Below are positions 36,263 to 45,774 of a stretch of DNA of 64,000 nt, piece after piece (position 1 is the stretch's first letter; every line of letters begins with the position of its first letter). The notes beneath the pieces were generated by a model, which made no database searches, had not been told where the DNA came from, and saw only the letters and a program-made list of their open reading frames with translations. Where the stretch lies: contig CADECF010000001.1 in NCBI GenBank assembly GCA_902825775.1, positions 310,001 to 374,000 on the forward strand, read 5' to 3'. A program made the position numbers and the translations under genes. Source of the DNA: an uncultured Lysobacteraceae bacterium (GTDB lineage: Bacteria; Pseudomonadota; Gammaproteobacteria; Xanthomonadales; Xanthomonadaceae).

Positions 36263-36267
36263 TTCTC

Positions 36268-36366
36268 ACCGTCATCCCAGCGAAAGCTGGGACCCATGTT
36301 GCTTTTGTTTTTTGCGGGTGCGGCCACAAGATCAAAATGGGTCCCAGCTTTCGCTGGGATGACGGT
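36268..36366. repeat. gtcatcccagcgaaagctgg inverted repeat between moaD and moaE
   Basis: Left arm accgtcatcccagcgaaagc and right arm ending gctttcgctgggatgacggt are inverse copies of about 32 bp with a 35-bp centre. Same family as the gtcatccc elements at 14.2 and 23.0 kb. It separates moaD and moaE, which are otherwise adjacent. Confidence 0.8.
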
Positions 36367-36803: not shown

Positions 36804-36807
36804 TTTT

Positions 36808-36925
36808 GTGGGAGCGGCTTCAGCCGCGAGCTTTTTGCAGACATCGAAAAGCAGGATCAAAAGATCGCGGCTGAAGCCGCTCCCACAAGGGCCGCTCCCG
36901 CAAGGGCCGCTCCCGCAAGGGCGAC
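36808..36925. repeat. GTGGGAGCGGCTTCAGCCGC palindromic element, copy 4, with 15-bp tandem tail
   Basis: The palindrome spans 36,808-36,886. It is followed by a tandem array of the 15-bp unit aagggccgctcccgc, about two and a half copies, up to 36,925. The tail unit repeats the terminal ccgctccc of the palindrome, suggesting slippage or stepwise growth at the element end. Confidence 0.82.
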
Positions 36926-37055: not shown

Positions 37056-37302
37056 ATAGACGTGTACCTGCAGTACAGTTCATCGCGCCGATCCGGCGAC
37101 CAGTTTCCGGGCCCAAGGCTCTCGCGGATCGGTCTATCGGATGCCCGGCTACCCTTCGGTGAAAGGCGGCCTGTAACGCGTGGCGCCGTAATAATAACAT
37201 GCCCGCCCTTATCGCCGTATCTAGCGTGTAGGGTCGCGCGTTCTGCGCGGGGCCGAAGCCGGCGGGAACCGGCGTGTTATAAGCAGCGCAATGGGAGGAG
37301 CG

Positions 37303-38192: not shown

Positions 38193-38471
38193 ATGATCCG
38201 AGCAGAAGAACTACCACTGTTGCCGGCTTTCATCAGGCGCATTCATCATTTGTTGGAAGCAGCTGAGGGGCGGCGGATTACGCAGGAGGAGATGGCTCGC
38301 CGATTGGGGGTCTCTTCCCGAACTTACGTCGAGTATCTCCGCGGAACGCACGCGCCACTAGGCATGCGAGCGCTTCTGGACATGCTTGCATTACTTAAAA
38401 ATGACGAGCTCGTGCGTGTTGTGGGCGAGTGGAGATCAAACTCAATGAAGGTAGACGATGGTAGCGCGTAA
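38193..38471 (+). CDS. Small XRE-type HTH protein, putative controller of the restriction-modification locus
   Basis: 92 residues. Helix-turn-helix around residues 27-60 (ITQEEMARRLGVSSRTYVEYLRGTH). Its stop overlaps the next gene by 14 bp, so it is co-translated with the methyltransferases. Size and position resemble C (controller) proteins of type II systems; regulation itself is inferred. The 220 bp between attL and this gene are non-coding and presumably hold the promoter. Confidence 0.72.
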   Translation: MIRAEELPLLPAFIRRIHHLLEAAEGRRITQEEMARRLGVSSRTYVEYLRGTHAPLGMRALLDMLALLKNDELVRVVGEWRSNSMKVDDGSA

Positions 38472-39345
38472 GCCGAAGGCCAAAGTAGATGACGCAACCG
38501 TGCCCTCTGAGCCGAAGGTTGTTCATCCCAAAAACCCGTTGAATGAACTTACATCGACGGAGTGGCTCCCCGAGACAGTGTCGGTCTGGAACCAGCGTGG
38601 ACTAGGTGCAAATCACCCAGATGCCGCGATTGAGCGGGAACATCCCGCGCCGTTTTCTTATACCGACGTCAGCCGTCTCATTCGCTTTTTCACTAAGCGC
38701 GAGGGGGTCGTGCTCGACCCTTTCGTGGGCGTCGGGTCGACCTTGAAAGCCTGCGCAGTAGAAGGGCGGCGCGGCATCGGCTTCGAGCTCAACCCCAAGT
38801 ATGTGGCGTTGACGAAGAAGCGGTTGAAGAAGGAAGCGTCAAACGCAGAGGCAGTGGATTGGCAAGAAGTGCGCAAAGGGGATGCGCGCAAGCTTGTGCA
38901 GGCGCTTGATGAGAACACGCTCGACTTCGTAATCACCAGTCCACCCTACTGGAACATCTTGCACAAGGAAGACCATAAGGCCAAACAGGAGCGTATCGAC
39001 AACCAACTCGATACGCGATACAGCAACGACAAGGCCGATCTAGGGAACATCGACGACTACGAAGCCTTCCTCGAAGCGCTTGGCGGCATTTTAGGTGCCT
39101 GCGTGAAACCTCTGCGTCCTAAGAAATACATGGCCGTGATCGTGAGCGACTTTCGCGACAAGTCGAACTACATCATGTTTCACGCCGACCTGGCGCGCGT
39201 CCTTCGCCCCTATGGTCTAGAAATGCGGGGGCTCACCGTGCTGTATCAGCGGCACAAACGGATCTTTCCCTACGGCTATCCCTACGCCTTCGTGCCCAAT
39301 ATCCACAATCAATTTATTCTGCTGCTGCAAAACACGAAGAAATGA
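38458..39345 (+). CDS. DNA methyltransferase (N-4/N-6 family, TSPPY type)
   Basis: 295 residues. SAM motif I is DPFVGVGST (87-95) and catalytic motif IV is TSPPYWN (160-166), so motif I precedes IV. TSPPY is common in N4-cytosine enzymes, though N6-adenine cannot be excluded. Residues 1-60 are hydrophilic and variable. ATG 38458 has AAGGT upstream. It overlaps the next methyltransferase gene by 4 bp. Presumed cognate methylase of the nuclease genes encoded on the opposite strand downstream. Confidence 0.88.
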   Translation: MVARKPKAKVDDATVPSEPKVVHPKNPLNELTSTEWLPETVSVWNQRGLGANHPDAAIEREHPAPFSYTDVSRLIRFFTKREGVVLDPFVGVGSTLKACAVEGRRGIGFELNPKYVALTKKRLKKEASNAEAVDWQEVRKGDARKLVQALDENTLDFVITSPPYWNILHKEDHKAKQERIDNQLDTRYSNDKADLGNIDDYEAFLEALGGILGACVKPLRPKKYMAVIVSDFRDKSNYIMFHADLARVLRPYGLEMRGLTVLYQRHKRIFPYGYPYAFVPNIHNQFILLLQNTKK

Positions 39346-40142
39346 GCATGAGCGAGACACTGCCGCTGGACGAAATTGTGCAGGGCGACTGCATTGAGGT
39401 CATGCGGAGCATGCCGGCGTCCTGCGTCGATCTCATCGTTGCCGACCCGCCCTACAATCTGAATAAGGATTTTGGCGCGTGGAAGGAAAGGGATCGAAAA
39501 GAGGGGTGGCTTCCGTGGTCAAGGGAGTGGATTAACGAAGGCATTCGTGTCCTCCGTCCTGGCGGAAGCTTCTTCATATATGGCATCCATCATCATTTAT
39601 GTTGGTTGCAGTGCCACCTCTATGAGTCGGGGATGGATTACCGCCGACAGATCATCTGGTTCTACGAGAACGGCTTCTCTGGCTACAAACGCAACCTCGC
39701 GGCACACTACGAACCGCTTCTCTGGTTCAGCAAGCCAGGTGCTGACTACACATTCCACCCAATTAGGGAACCTTACAAGAGCGCCGAGCGACTCAAGCAC
39801 AAGATCACAAAGGGCGGCAAGACGTGGGAGCCGCATCCTGACGGGCGCCTCGCCGGCGATGTGTGGAAATTTCCAGTTCTCGCCGGTAGGCGATTCGCCG
39901 CAGAGCGTGTCAATCATCCTACGCAGAAGCCGCTCAGCATCTCTCGAAGGATTGTCAGGCACTTCTCAAACGCAGGCGACGTGGTGCTCGTGCCGTTTGC
40001 CGGAAGCGGCTCCGAATGCGTCGCTGCGAAGCAACTCGAGCGGCACTTCATAGGCACCGAACTCAACCCTGACTACATTGCCATTGCTCGGCAACGTCTT
40101 GATGTGGCGCTAAACGATTTACTTAGCGGGCTCGATGGATGA
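39342..40142 (+). CDS. DNA methyltransferase (beta-class N6-adenine type, DPPYN)
   Basis: 266 residues. Catalytic motif DPPYN at 35-39 comes first and the SAM-binding FAGSG (219-223) is near the C-terminus, the beta-class order. 'HPTQKP' before motif I is also typical. DPPY favours N6-adenine methylation. Translation couples to the preceding methylase (ATGA). The last 24 bp overlap the 3' end of the convergent iron-sulfur protein gene. Two methylases of different type imply an asymmetric recognition site. Confidence 0.9.
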   Translation: MSMSETLPLDEIVQGDCIEVMRSMPASCVDLIVADPPYNLNKDFGAWKERDRKEGWLPWSREWINEGIRVLRPGGSFFIYGIHHHLCWLQCHLYESGMDYRRQIIWFYENGFSGYKRNLAAHYEPLLWFSKPGADYTFHPIREPYKSAERLKHKITKGGKTWEPHPDGRLAGDVWKFPVLAGRRFAAERVNHPTQKPLSISRRIVRHFSNAGDVVLVPFAGSGSECVAAKQLERHFIGTELNPDYIAIARQRLDVALNDLLSGLDG

Positions 40143-41189
40143 TCGCCTCTCGGCCGATAAGCGAAGTGGGCGTCCCGCGATGACCTCAAGAACACTTTTC
40201 CGATATGCCCGATTGTTCCGGTCTACATAGAGCTGCGATGCGGGCGGTAGAGGTCTACGAAGCCAGATCGCTAAGTGCAGTGCGAGTGTCGTGAGCGTCC
40301 CGATCCTCATGTTCAGAACCTTGGCGATGTCGGCCAGAACGTCCCAATAGCCTGATCGCACATTGGGTAGCGCATCCTTGACGATAAGCAGCGTCATCTC
40401 CTCAAGCGCCCAACCATAACGGGAGTGCAGAACGGCGGCGCTATCGAGCACATCGCGCGGCGACTCGATTGCCGAAAGCTGCCCGAACTCTACCTCTACC
40501 AAGCCCTTTGCTGCACCAGGCCGTCCGAGCACGAGATCCATACGCATATGGTTGTTTCCTCTCCGCCGCATCGCGGCACCTTGTCCTGCTGCGATCAGTA
40601 GGTTTCGGGTATGAAGCACAGGAAATCGGTCTCCAATCATGTGCATAGCCAGCTCCATGGCGCGCTCGGAGAGCGCTAATAGTGCATCGCTCTCTTCGGC
40701 GAGGACGCCTTGCTTGGGCGTGTGGAAAAGTGCTTCAACAGTTCGGTTGAAACGAGCGATTTCACCAGGGGGCAATTTCACATAAGCAGGATCGTCCTGC
40801 TGCCAAGCAACGCGCGCGCCCTTATCGGGGCGTAGGTAAATCGCGCCGACGGGACACCGACTTGCACAGACTCCGCAGCCAATACACTTTGATGGATCGA
40901 CCTCCGGTGATCCGCTGCCGGGGTCAATCCATATCGCATCCGCTGCGCACGTAGCAGTCGACGTATCAGCAGGAAATTCAGGAAGAGAGGTGCTGGCGAT
41001 CTCGTATTCTGAGAATGAGACACAGGGGCTGGTGGGGCAACTCAGACAGGCTGCTTCTGCCCGGTCCCCATTGCCGAATTGCACAATCGCGGGTTGAGCT
41101 TCGCTATACGCAAGGGCAATGGGCGCGTATCCATCTGCAAACCCATAAACGCTGGTGGCGCTAGATGCGGATTTAAGCAGTCTGGACAT
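40119..41189 (-). CDS. Two-[4Fe-4S]-cluster protein of the restriction-modification locus; novel candidate subunit
   Basis: 356 residues. Two ferredoxin-like cysteine sets are complete: Cys48-x2-Cys51-x4-Cys56 with Cys81 (TCAADAIWID), and Cys102-x2-Cys105-x2-Cys108-x3-Cys112-Pro (CIGCGVCASRCPVGAIYL). The C-terminal 200 residues contain 'RMDLVLG ... GLVEVEFG' (Asp218, Glu232, Glu234), which resembles a PD-(D/E)XK core but has Glu where Lys is expected. ATG 41189 (a TTG lies 1 codon upstream) overlaps the end of the nuclease gene by 17 bp, so the two are co-expressed. I know no named restriction system with a dicluster ferredoxin domain. Possible roles: DNA-binding or sensing subunit, or redox-gated nuclease partner. 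Confidence 0.75.
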   Translation of the reverse strand: MSRLLKSASSATSVYGFADGYAPIALAYSEAQPAIVQFGNGDRAEAACLSCPTSPCVSFSEYEIASTSLPEFPADTSTATCAADAIWIDPGSGSPEVDPSKCIGCGVCASRCPVGAIYLRPDKGARVAWQQDDPAYVKLPPGEIARFNRTVEALFHTPKQGVLAEESDALLALSERAMELAMHMIGDRFPVLHTRNLLIAAGQGAAMRRRGNNHMRMDLVLGRPGAAKGLVEVEFGQLSAIESPRDVLDSAAVLHSRYGWALEEMTLLIVKDALPNVRSGYWDVLADIAKVLNMRIGTLTTLALHLAIWLRRPLPPASQLYVDRNNRAYRKSVLEVIAGRPLRLSAERRSSIEPAK

Positions 41190-41712
41190 CAAGCACTCCC
41201 CTGAGCTCGAACATTGCTGCCAGATCCAGTGGCGCCTGTGCCATCACTCGCGCTAAGGCAAGGCGAAGTAAGCTTGTAAAATCGATCACGCCAATGTTGA
41301 TCCGGTAGGTAGCAAAAATATCGCCCACGAGTTCGTGCACTTCGGAGCGATCATTTGGCGAGTTATAGCCGACAACGAGCGTTGTCGTGGCGTGCGTTGT
41401 TGCGTGTGGGACACCTTCTCGCGCTAGGAGGATGATCTTGTTCTCCAAGGCTTGTCGCACACCCTTGACCGAAATTTCGATCTCCTCGCCGGGCGACTTG
41501 ATCTCGACTGGAATTGAGTGCACGGCGTGAACGATGAGGGCATCTTCGCGCGCATTGTTAACGCCCATCCGATTGACCTCGCAGTTGAAGCCAACAATTG
41601 TAAGAAGGTCCGCGACGAGGGGATAGAAAGTTCCCTTCTGATCTCGGCCATGTGCCAGATGCAAGCGCTGCATGGCCTCCTCGATCTGCCCCCCCCGCGG
41701 CACCCAACGCAT
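41173..41712 (-). CDS. PD-(D/E)XK endonuclease part of the restriction enzyme (C-terminal fragment after a frameshift)
   Basis: 179 residues as it stands. Catalytic core Asp57-x12-Glu70-x-Lys72 (EDALIV ... IPVEIKSP) is a textbook PD-(D/E)XK motif. It starts at ATG 41712 within the 3' part of the next gene on the same strand. If the run of eight G's at 41,689-41,696 (minus strand) were seven, the upstream frame would continue straight into this one (AAGG then QIEEAMQ), making one 573-residue enzyme with the catalytic residues at about 451, 464 and 466. It may be a sequencing error or a phase-variable switch. Confidence 0.75.
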   Translation of the reverse strand: MRWVPRGGQIEEAMQRLHLAHGRDQKGTFYPLVADLLTIVGFNCEVNRMGVNNAREDALIVHAVHSIPVEIKSPGEEIEISVKGVRQALENKIILLAREGVPHATTHATTTLVVGYNSPNDRSEVHELVGDIFATYRINIGVIDFTSLLRLALARVMAQAPLDLAAMFELRGVLDVQTA

Positions 41713-42895
41713 TGCGTAGTTCTGCTTCCACGGCGGCAGTCCGGACGTTGGCCAAGACGGTGCCAGTGGTTGGTTGAACGAATAGACGTGTCAAGCGCGA
41801 AACTTTTGGGGATGCTTCGCCAATTCTTCGAGCAGTCGCTGGAACGCGCTTCGGACGCGCGTGATATGCAATGAACTCCGGTGCGTAGGTCTCAACCGTC
41901 GCAACGGACAACTGCTGGAAAGGCGAAAAATGGATGGGCCTGTCGAACCCGCCGTCTCGAAGCAACTGCTCTGCTGCGTGAACAGTGGCCAATTCATCCC
42001 CTAGATCGAAACCGCCTCGTTCGAGCATACGTAGGTGTGTCGCTCGGATCATCGCGGGCCGCAGCTCCGTTGGCAGGTGTTCGAAATGGATTGCGCGAAA
42101 ATCTAATACTTGCTCCAAGCGGGCAGCTTCCCTGCGGCCAAACTCGGTGATGCGAAGCTGGCCGCGCGAGGCACGCTCCGTCCATCCGGCCCACGGCGGA
42201 ACCGCCATAGGGATGCGCACGTAGTTCCCCATGGTTGGGTTTCGCTTGATGCTGCGCTGTGCCGCTATTTCATCAAGCTGCCTGTCAAGGGCCCCGGAGA
42301 CTCGTCGCATGCGTTCAATGTCAGTAGCTAAGGCTACGATCAGCTCGGCACTAGAGTCGTCCTCAATGCACATCGGGCCGGCGATTAGCTCGTCGCGCGA
42401 GAGGACATCGAGGCGAGCTAACGCCTTCAAGATCGTCGAGAAAGGGCGAACCACCTGCCCGCCTCGCACATTTGAACCCGGATTTGGAAAGGCCATGGCG
42501 AGGAAGGACTCGCGCGTGAGAGCCCGTGGATCAGCGGCGGACGCAAGGTGGTTTCCAAGGTGAGTGAAACGAAACCTCAGGGCCTGGTCGCCTGACGCCA
42601 TCCAGCCTAGGGTTCGGTAGAGCTCCGAATACATCTTGGCTTGGTTGTAGATCGGATCCCGGCTCCTGTCTGCACGCGTTGAGCGCAGCAATGCCTGTGC
42701 CCCGATCGCTCCTTGGGACGACACGGTATTGGTATCCACCATGGCCCTGCCCATATCGTCCAGCCCAAACTCAGGTAGATCGACCAAGCCCGGATGGATC
42801 GCCCGAAAGGTTCTGATGAACTGATCAATGTCAGAACCGGGATTGGGTATGCGGAGCACGGCGCCGTCCTGTCGGGTTGCGCCCCATCTTCTCAA
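41558..42895 (-). CDS. Restriction endonuclease, N-terminal part (frame lost at a G8 tract)
   Basis: 445 residues as read, of which about 402 are genuine and the last 43 are out of frame after the G8 tract. Start is TTG 42895 (GTG codons downstream are alternatives). Segments such as 'MYSELYRTLGWM' and 'VRPFSTILKALARLDVLSRDELIAGP' look like the helical recognition part of AlwI-like type IIS enzymes; this family link is tentative. Together with the catalytic fragment and the iron-sulfur gene it forms a minus-strand operon converging on the methylase operon. Confidence 0.68.
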   Translation of the reverse strand: MRRWGATRQDGAVLRIPNPGSDIDQFIRTFRAIHPGLVDLPEFGLDDMGRAMVDTNTVSSQGAIGAQALLRSTRADRSRDPIYNQAKMYSELYRTLGWMASGDQALRFRFTHLGNHLASAADPRALTRESFLAMAFPNPGSNVRGGQVVRPFSTILKALARLDVLSRDELIAGPMCIEDDSSAELIVALATDIERMRRVSGALDRQLDEIAAQRSIKRNPTMGNYVRIPMAVPPWAGWTERASRGQLRITEFGRREAARLEQVLDFRAIHFEHLPTELRPAMIRATHLRMLERGGFDLGDELATVHAAEQLLRDGGFDRPIHFSPFQQLSVATVETYAPEFIAYHARPKRVPATARRIGEASPKVSRLTRLFVQPTTGTVLANVRTAAVEAELRNALGAAGGADRGGHAALASGTWPRSEGNFLSPRRGPSYNCWLQLRGQSDGR

Positions 42896-44210: not shown

Positions 44211-44376
44211 TCAGTTGCCCATGCTTCTATGTCGATTGCCACTTTGGCCGCTAAAAGTGCGCGGATTGATCAATCCATAAGAGAGTGAGATAGACCCTCT
44301 TTTCTGCATCTCTTCGTTTGACAGACAAGCCCATCGCCTTATCACAAGTCCTGGCTAGGCAGCAGGAAGTTTGTCA

Positions 44377-45774
44377 ATGAAGCAGGGTGCAGATGGGGCG
44401 GCGAACGCAACGAATAGTGTGGAGTTTCCTGCGTCGGGTTGGACGATAAAAGACCTCCGCATTGGAAAAGTGCATGCGGGATCTGTGCACATCCACGACA
44501 TGAAGGGCGCGCATCAGTTTCGTGAGTTTGTCGAGGCTACTTTCGAGCTCGTCAAGCGTAGGCGCCAGGGGCGTAATGCAACCCGATACCTGGAAGAGCT
44601 CAGCAATCCAGAAGCGCCTAGGCTTCTGTCCGAAGAGGCGGGCGACTATCTCGCTGAGATGAAGCGCCGTCGCAAGGCGAGATCGACGCAATACAGCCAG
44701 AAGCGCCATTTTCGACTGCTCACACTCGCCGCGGGTGATATTCCGGTCTCTCGCATCAGCTCAGCGCATATCCGTGAGTTTTGGGAAGTTCTGCGCTGGT
44801 GGCCCGAAGACGCCGGGTCGTCAAAGAAGTATCAAGGCATGACCGATGCGCAGATCCTCGCATGTGGCAAAGCCAAAAATCGCGAGCCGCGGGCGGACTC
44901 GACCATGAATTTGGCAAAAACGCAGATATCGGCCTTTTTCAACGGCTTGGTAAAACGGCGAGTGATCGCCTCGTCTCCGATGGTGAGCTTCCGTGATCCC
45001 AGAAGGAGTCTGGTCGATGCACCGAAGCGGCGGCCCTTCATGGCCGAAGAGATCGTCAAGATATTCGATCCAGAAACATTCTTGCCATGGGCAAGAAAGG
45101 CGCCACACGCTTGGTGGGCTCCGATGATCGGTCTATACACCGGCGCCAGGGTGGGGGAAGTCGCCCAGCTCAAAGTAGCAGACATCATCCAGGATGCCGG
45201 TGTCTGGTGCTTCTCAATCCGGGTAACAGAGGATAGCGATGGAGGGGTAAGCCAAACCCTCAAAGGCGCCTCTGCCGTTCGCTTCATTCCGGTTGCTCAA
45301 CCGCTGCTGGATGCCGGCTTGCTCGACTTCCTGGAAGACGCGCGGGAGAGTGGGCATGCGAGGCTGTTTCCACAGCTGAAAATGGGCTGCAAGGCTGGAA
45401 CCCAGGAGCGCAATGGTGTCGGTTATGGTCAAGCGTTGTGCCGTCTGTTCTCGGCCCACTTGAAGCGCAGCATGTCGATGCAAAAGGGGTTGGCGTTCCA
45501 CTGTTTCAGACACAATCTGGTTACGGAGCTGACCGTCAACAAGGTCGAGCCGCGTGTTATCGCCAGCATCACGGGGCATCTGCCGAAACAGCATGGGAGA
45601 GAGGTTATGCAGTATCCAGTGATGGAGGGGCACTACATGCACGTGCCGACAGGGATCATCAGGCCGGAGCAAGTGGCGGCGCTGGCTACATTCACTCCGC
45701 CAGTCAGTCTTCCGGTCTATCAGCGGGGGCAGTTTGCCCACTGCTTTGGGAAGAATGCGAAGAAGTATCCGTGA
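44377..45774 (+). CDS. Tyrosine recombinase/phage-type integrase, internal
   Basis: 465 residues from ATG 44377 (AGGAAG 7 nt upstream). Catalytic set of tyrosine recombinases: Arg in LYTGARVGEV, His-x-x-Arg in HCFRHN, His in ITGH, and a Tyr in MEGHYMHVP. An N-terminal SAM-like core-binding domain precedes. It is not adjacent to either attachment site found here, so it either belongs to an older, nested element or has another role. It is distantly related to the border integrase (both share LIGLYTGARV and the E-V-x-QL region). Confidence 0.85.
   Translation: MKQGADGAANATNSVEFPASGWTIKDLRIGKVHAGSVHIHDMKGAHQFREFVEATFELVKRRRQGRNATRYLEELSNPEAPRLLSEEAGDYLAEMKRRRKARSTQYSQKRHFRLLTLAAGDIPVSRISSAHIREFWEVLRWWPEDAGSSKKYQGMTDAQILACGKAKNREPRADSTMNLAKTQISAFFNGLVKRRVIASSPMVSFRDPRRSLVDAPKRRPFMAEEIVKIFDPETFLPWARKAPHAWWAPMIGLYTGARVGEVAQLKVADIIQDAGVWCFSIRVTEDSDGGVSQTLKGASAVRFIPVAQPLLDAGLLDFLEDARESGHARLFPQLKMGCKAGTQERNGVGYGQALCRLFSAHLKRSMSMQKGLAFHCFRHNLVTELTVNKVEPRVIASITGHLPKQHGREVMQYPVMEGHYMHVPTGIIRPEQVAALATFTPPVSLPVYQRGQFAHCFGKNAKKYP

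Follow-up and report, generated by a model that had tools for sequence, protein, structure and literature searches.

What an iron-sulfur protein might do in a restriction system is the question raised by one gene in the window, by which we mean the whole stretch of 64,000 nucleotides analysed here. The gene encodes a protein with a ferredoxin-type cysteine module and a nuclease-like domain, denoted as beta, and it lies between the gene of a larger protein, denoted as alpha, and two DNA methyltransferase genes (MTase1 and MTase2). In an earlier reading made from the sequence alone (the sequence-only reading), beta was suspected to be a redox-sensing or structural subunit of an undescribed heteromeric restriction enzyme. 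The features of the locus are as follows.

38193..38471, plus strand: Xre-type helix-turn-helix protein, candidate regulator, overlapping MTase1 (Pfam HTH_3 25.1 bits, cut-off 23)
38458..39345, plus strand: DNA methyltransferase 1, N6_N4 class (Pfam N6_N4_Mtase 80.9 bits)
39342..40142, plus strand: DNA methyltransferase 2, N6_N4 class (Pfam N6_N4_Mtase 172.1 bits)
40119..41189, minus strand: beta, putative Fe-S small subunit, 356 residues from ATG or 357 from TTG at 41192
40122..40124, minus strand: C-terminal Lys357 of beta, invariant in 17/17 Fe-S betas and 3/3 Fe-S-less betas
40263..40760, minus strand: nuclease-like domain of beta, about residues 145-310, from hhalign with the alpha nuclease domain
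40488-40490, minus strand: E235 of beta, invariant 17/17
40494-40496, minus strand: E233 of beta, invariant 17/17
40536-40538, minus strand: D219 of beta, invariant 17/17
40854..41048, minus strand: ferredoxin-type dicluster module of beta, Cys49 to Cys113, eight Cys invariant in 17/17
41173..41712, minus strand: C-terminal piece of alpha, PD-(D/E)xK nuclease domain (alpha profile 401-567 of 568, E 2.8e-70)
41558..42859, minus strand: N-terminal piece of alpha, putative DNA-recognition part (alpha profile 2-380 of 568, E 9.2e-105)
41689..41696, minus strand: run of eight G at the junction of the two alpha frames, between the recognition and nuclease parts
44371-45774: gene of the integrase family, in the accessory region that also holds the cassette

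The gene layout described by the sequence-only reading was confirmed, in that the beta gene and the endonuclease gene share 17 bp, and the beta gene faces the methyltransferase genes in convergent orientation, overlapping that of MTase2 by 24 bp. The whole beta protein holds only eight cysteines, and these fall into the two sets described before, although every residue number is higher by one in the 357-residue numbering used here (49/52/57/82 and 103/106/109/113). The pattern is C49-x2-C52-x4-C57-x24-C82 and C103-x2-C106-x2-C109-x3-C113P, and a loose form of this dicluster pattern was obtained in none of 200,000 residue shuffles of beta. The second set matched Pfam Fer4 at 37.8 bits (cut-off 21.1), while the first set has the form C-x2-C-x4-C with the fourth Cys 25 residues on, so that its spacing is not textbook. 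Dicluster models stayed below their cut-offs for the window beta, and of these Fer4_7 gave 26.8 against a cut-off of 27.0, but 27.3 for the homologue at locus L063; the single-cluster Fer4 model passes in both.

To describe conservation, we used an alignment of 17 Fe-S betas (A12), which are 27-36% identical to the window beta and from which duplicates (L015, L011), a cut copy (L047) and split copies (L045, L063) were omitted. The eight cysteines are invariant in all 17, as are R217, D219, E233, E235, R246, R279, Y282 and the last residue, Lys357, and the cysteines are also present in L011, L047 and L063 outside the alignment. No other cysteine column rises above 9/17, and the Fe-S betas are 340-380 residues long. 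Judged by its sequence, the module would hold two [4Fe-4S] clusters. Three betas on viral contigs (L026-L028) comprise only 214-215 residues and are without the Fe-S module, and all three keep both acids of the ExE motif and the final Lys. These Fe-S-less betas show that the architecture of the enzyme is possible without clusters. In a tree of the alpha and beta domains, the alphas, the Fe-S betas and the Fe-S-less betas are separated with two changes; the grouping of the Fe-S betas has a support of 94/92, short of the starred level, the root is on a long branch, and long branches meet.

The AF2 model of beta reached a mean pLDDT of 86.1 and a pTM of 0.88. Foldseek searches with this model gave no match at E<=0.001 to the PDB and likewise none to viral folds, and the first five PDB matches, all with E>0.001, were EndoMS, the Fe-S oxidoreductase subunit 6x1o_B, another repair endonuclease, Nt.BspD6I and EcoO109I. 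When the C-terminal domains of beta and alpha were compared by hhalign, they matched with Prob 97.5 and E 7.2e-12, and the beta profile also picked up alpha in 4/6 genomes or records. On these sequence comparisons, the C-terminal domain of beta is a paralogue of the alpha nuclease domain. In the alignment, the D and E-I-K of alpha lie opposite D219 and E235-x-237 of beta, and position 237, the slot of the alpha Lys, is G in 12, S in three, K in one and V in one of the 17 betas. The sequence-only reading, which saw a D...E-x-E pattern reminiscent of a nuclease fold without the catalytic Lys, was therefore accurate, with D219...E233-x-E235 invariant and the Lys slot not conserved. Its idea of a structural subunit fits less well, because the paralogy favours a second catalytic or pseudo-catalytic subunit over a purely structural one.

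The gene at 41173-41712, which had been taken for the endonuclease gene, does encode a nuclease domain, but it is the C-terminal part of a larger gene whose N-terminal part lies in another frame. The GTG start of the N-terminal piece aligned with those of relatives, the C-terminal piece has its own ATG, and both domains are otherwise matched almost end to end. Because alpha is split between its domains at the run of eight G, the enzyme of the window may be inactive or organised differently from the usual pair of chains. The run is possibly a sequencing error, a phase-variable or slippage tract, or the mark of a functional or tolerated split; 2.26 such runs are expected in a window of this composition, so one is not unusual. 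Among 19 alphas aligned without that of the window (A13), the D/ExK motif is invariant (19/19), and D442, P453, E455 and K457 in the numbering of L014 are kept in all of them.

For the same 19 alphas there was no credible Pfam family and neither NCBIfam nor PADLOC had a match, and two alphas searched against PHROGs gave no match. Beyond Fe-S models, no family in Pfam, NCBIfam or PADLOC covers either beta or alpha. For the alpha of L014, an AF2 model (pLDDT 83.0, pTM 0.60) was searched with Foldseek, where N.BspD6I took ranks 1-8 (best E 1.6e-9, prob 1.00) and FokI ranks 9-11, with low global TM-scores of 0.23-0.32. The alpha profile A8 gave no match to PDB sequences at E<=10, so the kinship suggested between alpha and BspD6I rests on a predicted fold with a pTM of 0.60 and low TM-scores (0.27-0.32). 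Some copies of alpha are incomplete. At L011 (6133-7671) the alpha gene is truncated beside a DDE transposase ORF, and the near-identical copy at L012 is intact. At L042 (1-260) alpha is reduced to its final 48 residues (profile 519-566, E 2.4e-14), and the unrelated sequence preceding them resembles the end of a transposase by eye.

With beta as a single sequence, homologues were not found in a phylum sample of 398 genomes, apart from its own genome and two short ferredoxin-only matches, and its C-terminal part found only its own genome in an order sample of 398. As a single query, beta also had no homologue among plasmids, phages, viral contigs and genome contigs, and alpha, with the window N-terminal piece and relatives as queries, had no match among plasmids and phages. 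A search with MTase1 did pick out an IMG/VR contig (L006) that carries all four genes, and further copies were found by alignment searches of viral contigs with MTase1, beta and alpha. Genome contigs were scanned with the C-terminal domain of beta alone, without the Cys motif (A9), which yielded 12 genomic loci from Spartobacteria, Chloroflexi/Anaerolineae (five), Phaeobacter, Roseovarius, Loktanella, Latescibacterota, Nitrospinota and an Erysipelothrix MAG. Two methyltransferases, alpha and beta thus form a conserved cassette in viral contigs and in genomes of several phyla, and the family is rare and scattered. Members of the family were present in 1/394 genomes of a Phaeobacter family sample and 3/400 of a Leptolinea phylum sample, all four of which had, by handle, sequence or matching coordinates, already been found. 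The cassette genes are arranged convergently, as in the window, or co-directionally (L048, L063, L026, L028).

The HMMs used for co-occurrence were built from the window and the first viral copies, so that matches to these training rows arise by construction; L014 and L015 are identical, and L011 and L012 nearly so. In the genomic loci, the ferredoxin module was present in 11/11 betas with a visible N-terminus (L045 starts inside beta). Alpha adjoins beta in 11/11 loci whose contig reaches that far, comprising ten with alpha, one of them a contig-edge piece (L037), and the 48-residue remnant at L042. The methyltransferase pair was visible in 10/12, as L047 ends before it and L045 is without it on the visible side. 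We considered L045 as a beta without methyltransferases and rejected this, because it is a contig-edge fragment: the fragment recurs with matching coordinates in genome G1475, where MTase1, MTase2, alpha and the Fe-S half of beta lie at one end of a different contig.

In the viral contigs, the beta-first scan found alpha adjoining in 11/11 (truncated in L024), the Fe-S module in 8/11 (absent in L026-L028) and the methyltransferase pair in 10/11; at L027 there was no methyltransferase in the 5 kb upstream of alpha, and the contig ends just after beta. Of eight matches in the MTase1-first scan, seven were cassettes with an Fe-S beta and one (L016, 30%) was without alpha and beta, while the alpha-first scan found beta in 7/8, with the contig of L035 ending within 100 bases of alpha. 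Distant plasmid relatives of MTase1 (L007-L009, 28-34% identity) showed no alpha or beta in the stretches examined, and MTase1-type enzymes therefore live elsewhere too. Pairwise distances over 14 Fe-S cassettes, which share inheritance, correlated with r of 0.936 between alpha and beta, 0.781 between alpha and MTase1 and 0.716 between beta and MTase1, and each value was reached in 0/2000 permutations. The sequence-only proposal of a heteromeric restriction enzyme with beta as one of its subunits is well supported by these data, since homologues of beta directly adjoin alpha and, nearly always, two methyltransferases. A check of neighbouring genes, suggested in the same sequence-only reading, showed that the adjoining genes are restriction genes and not redox enzymes.

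The methyltransferases of the window are close to those of other cassettes, MTase1 being 59-66% identical to its counterparts in five homologous cassettes and MTase2 62% identical to the L006 copy. MTase1 is longer (370-415 residues) in L020, L026, L028 and L048, and in L020 and L028 its N-terminus looks helix-turn-helix-like by eye, as if a regulator had been fused. Small ORFs next to four other cassettes (L010, L012, L044 and L047) likewise encode helix-turn-helix proteins, in 4/4 of those tested. Among the matches listed, the strong ones to three congeners end at window position 37060, which together with the integrase-family gene gives the cassette the appearance of accessory DNA. Repeats of about 100 bp, dispersed through the genome, lie at about 36265-36365 and 36804-36918 of the window, with many copies in the genome and in the three congeners.

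We compared the cassette with described systems. According to passages of a 2014 review of Type II enzymes (PMC4081073), the large subunit of some Type IIT enzymes recognises the site and cuts one strand, the small subunit cuts the other, and two methyltransferases are generally present. In the homologous cassettes, alpha or its remnant is encoded together with beta wherever the contig reaches, two methyltransferase genes are nearly always present, and there are two candidate active sites, D/ExK in alpha (19/19) and D/ExE with a variable Lys slot in beta (17/17). BspD6I, a heterodimeric Type IIS/IIT enzyme, resembles the cassette in its large recognition-plus-nuclease subunit, the closest predicted fold to alpha, and in its separate smaller subunit, which holds a catalytic site as described in parts of PMC4081073 and PMC6261011. 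However, the alpha profile found no sequence similarity to BspD6I in the PDB, and beta differs from its small subunit in the D...ExE site without conserved Lys. The BspD6I small subunit has 186 residues in the review passages (PMC4081073), whereas beta is about twice as long and carries the ferredoxin-type module; a nuclease domain only, as in a BspD6I-like small subunit, occurs among the relatives in the 214-215-residue form of L026-L028. BtsI likewise combines two unequal endonuclease subunits with two methyltransferases, one per strand, and the passages of PMC2909958 and PMC4081073 on BtsI and BsrDI mention no Fe-S module. The claim that the enzyme is undescribed thus holds for its sequence families, as given above, but not for its arrangement, which is that of the known Type IIT enzymes BspD6I and BtsI.

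Cysteine-ligated clusters are tied to nucleases of the PD-(D/E)xK class in Cas4 and AddB, and a similar tie is predicted for beta. However, Cas4 has four conserved cysteines (excerpts of PMC5704561), whereas beta has eight in a separate N-terminal ferredoxin-type module of a putative restriction enzyme subunit, and for this different layout we dropped the idea of beta as a Cas4 relative. For the role of the module, a closer analogy is archaeal Rpo3, in which a two-cluster ferredoxin-like domain is described (PMC5300874) as promoting assembly of the polymerase, itself a non-redox nucleic-acid enzyme. Rpo3 is unrelated to beta in protein and process, so the analogy concerns the role only. On the modification side, a phosphorothioation protein of BREX-like systems is reported to have a ferredoxin-type Cys-rich region (PMC12839542). 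The only occurrence of 'iron-sulfur' in PMC12602166 is a reference title on DndC, and neither 'iron-sulfur' nor 'Fe-S' occurs in the 2014 review (PMC4081073). In the open literature, as covered by titles and the starts of abstracts, with REBASE and most subscription papers outside this coverage, we found no restriction enzyme with a ferredoxin-type subunit.

We propose that beta is probably the smaller of the two subunits in a heterodimeric restriction endonuclease of BspD6I-like, Type IIT-style design. Sequence and prediction show the cassette, the conservation of cysteines and active-site residues, the alpha-beta paralogy and the predicted folds, and from these we infer that beta binds clusters, that alpha recognises the site, which subunit cuts which strand, that the enzyme restricts DNA and what the clusters do. 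Each of the two methyltransferases would guard a different strand of an asymmetric site, the N-terminal part of alpha would bind that site, and the D...E-I-K of alpha would cut one strand. Beta would dock beside alpha with its paralogous nuclease domain (D219, E233, E235), where a further residue, for example the invariant Lys357, may complete the site, and it would cut the other strand, or position and license cutting there. This division of labour, with recognition and nicking by alpha, a second cut made or made possible by beta and protection of both strands by the methyltransferases, is proposed by analogy with BspD6I and BtsI. The N-terminal module with its two putative [4Fe-4S] clusters would most likely help beta to fold and to dock on, or be assembled with, alpha and DNA, a role for which Rpo3 is the nearest analogue, and full double-strand cleavage would then need holo-beta. 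Given a ferredoxin-like module with eight invariant cysteines in one half-enzyme, the cutting of foreign DNA may depend on Fe-S clusters.

Other readings of the locus were weighed against this proposal. Since no conserved Lys lies opposite the alpha EIK, with G at position 237 in most betas, beta could be inactive, acting with its clusters as an allosteric or DNA-positioning scaffold while alpha cuts both strands in turn or as a dimer. We regard this as somewhat unlikely, because D219, E233 and E235 are invariant in all 17 Fe-S betas and the ExE acids are kept even in the Fe-S-less ones, and because BamHI is a known precedent of a D/ExE active site without Lys. The BamHI mutant D94N/E113K is cleavage-deficient (abstract of PMC8845596). 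That beta is instead an unrelated ferredoxin-fused protein merely neighbouring a restriction system is highly improbable; its motif does resemble those of electron-transfer proteins, and at L048 a pyruvate:ferredoxin oxidoreductase gene lies about 4 kb from beta, but the gene overlaps and co-occurs with alpha, the nuclease domains are paralogous, and the two proteins diverge tightly together. Beta as a stray redox gene was therefore dropped.

The preferred reading, in which the module folds or docks beta, competes also with a gate sensitive to redox state or to oxygen/NO, in which oxidised or apo-beta would switch restriction off or reduce alpha to a nickase. All eight cysteines are kept where no other cysteine column is common, which would suit such a gate, but the hosts include both roseobacters and Anaerolineae. 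The two groups are unlike in their use of oxygen, and the presence of the module is therefore not a simple matter of lifestyle. The gate is a possible reading that we hold to be unlikely. The large subunits of BspD6I (PMC6261011) and BtsI (PMC2909958) are nickases on their own in the passages concerned, and because they act alone in this way, loss of beta would turn cutting into nicking. An extended form of this idea, in which holo-beta completes the double-strand cut, cluster loss or oxidation leaves alpha inactive or as a methylation-sensitive nickase, the strength of defence follows the Fe-S or oxidative state of the cell, and alpha of the host is moreover divided into a recognition and a nuclease chain, perhaps switchable at the run of eight G, seems to us unlikely too. 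A different doubt concerns the window copy itself, which may be decaying, with alpha frameshifted and only the methyltransferases still of consequence. The two alpha frames meeting at the run of eight G would agree with decay, as would the damaged copies elsewhere (L011, truncated beside a transposase, and L042, which keeps only the end of alpha). However, the break falls between two domains that are otherwise nearly complete, the C-terminal piece has its own ATG, and the run, which is of a kind expected by composition, has other possible explanations in sequencing error, phase variation or tolerance of the split, so that decay is a tentative possibility which we do not favour.

Taken all together, what is new here is the putative Fe-S-bearing small subunit, whereas the heterodimeric, Type IIT-style arrangement of the restriction enzyme is already known. 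With its invariant ExE and C-terminal Lys, beta lends itself to testing whether a catalytic site can be built in a non-standard way, and the Fe-S-less sister form provides a natural comparison with and without the module. If the clusters are bound, a restriction enzyme of this kind could go unnoticed in ordinary aerobic purification, restriction would be tied to the supply of Fe-S clusters, and redox-controlled defence would become directly testable.
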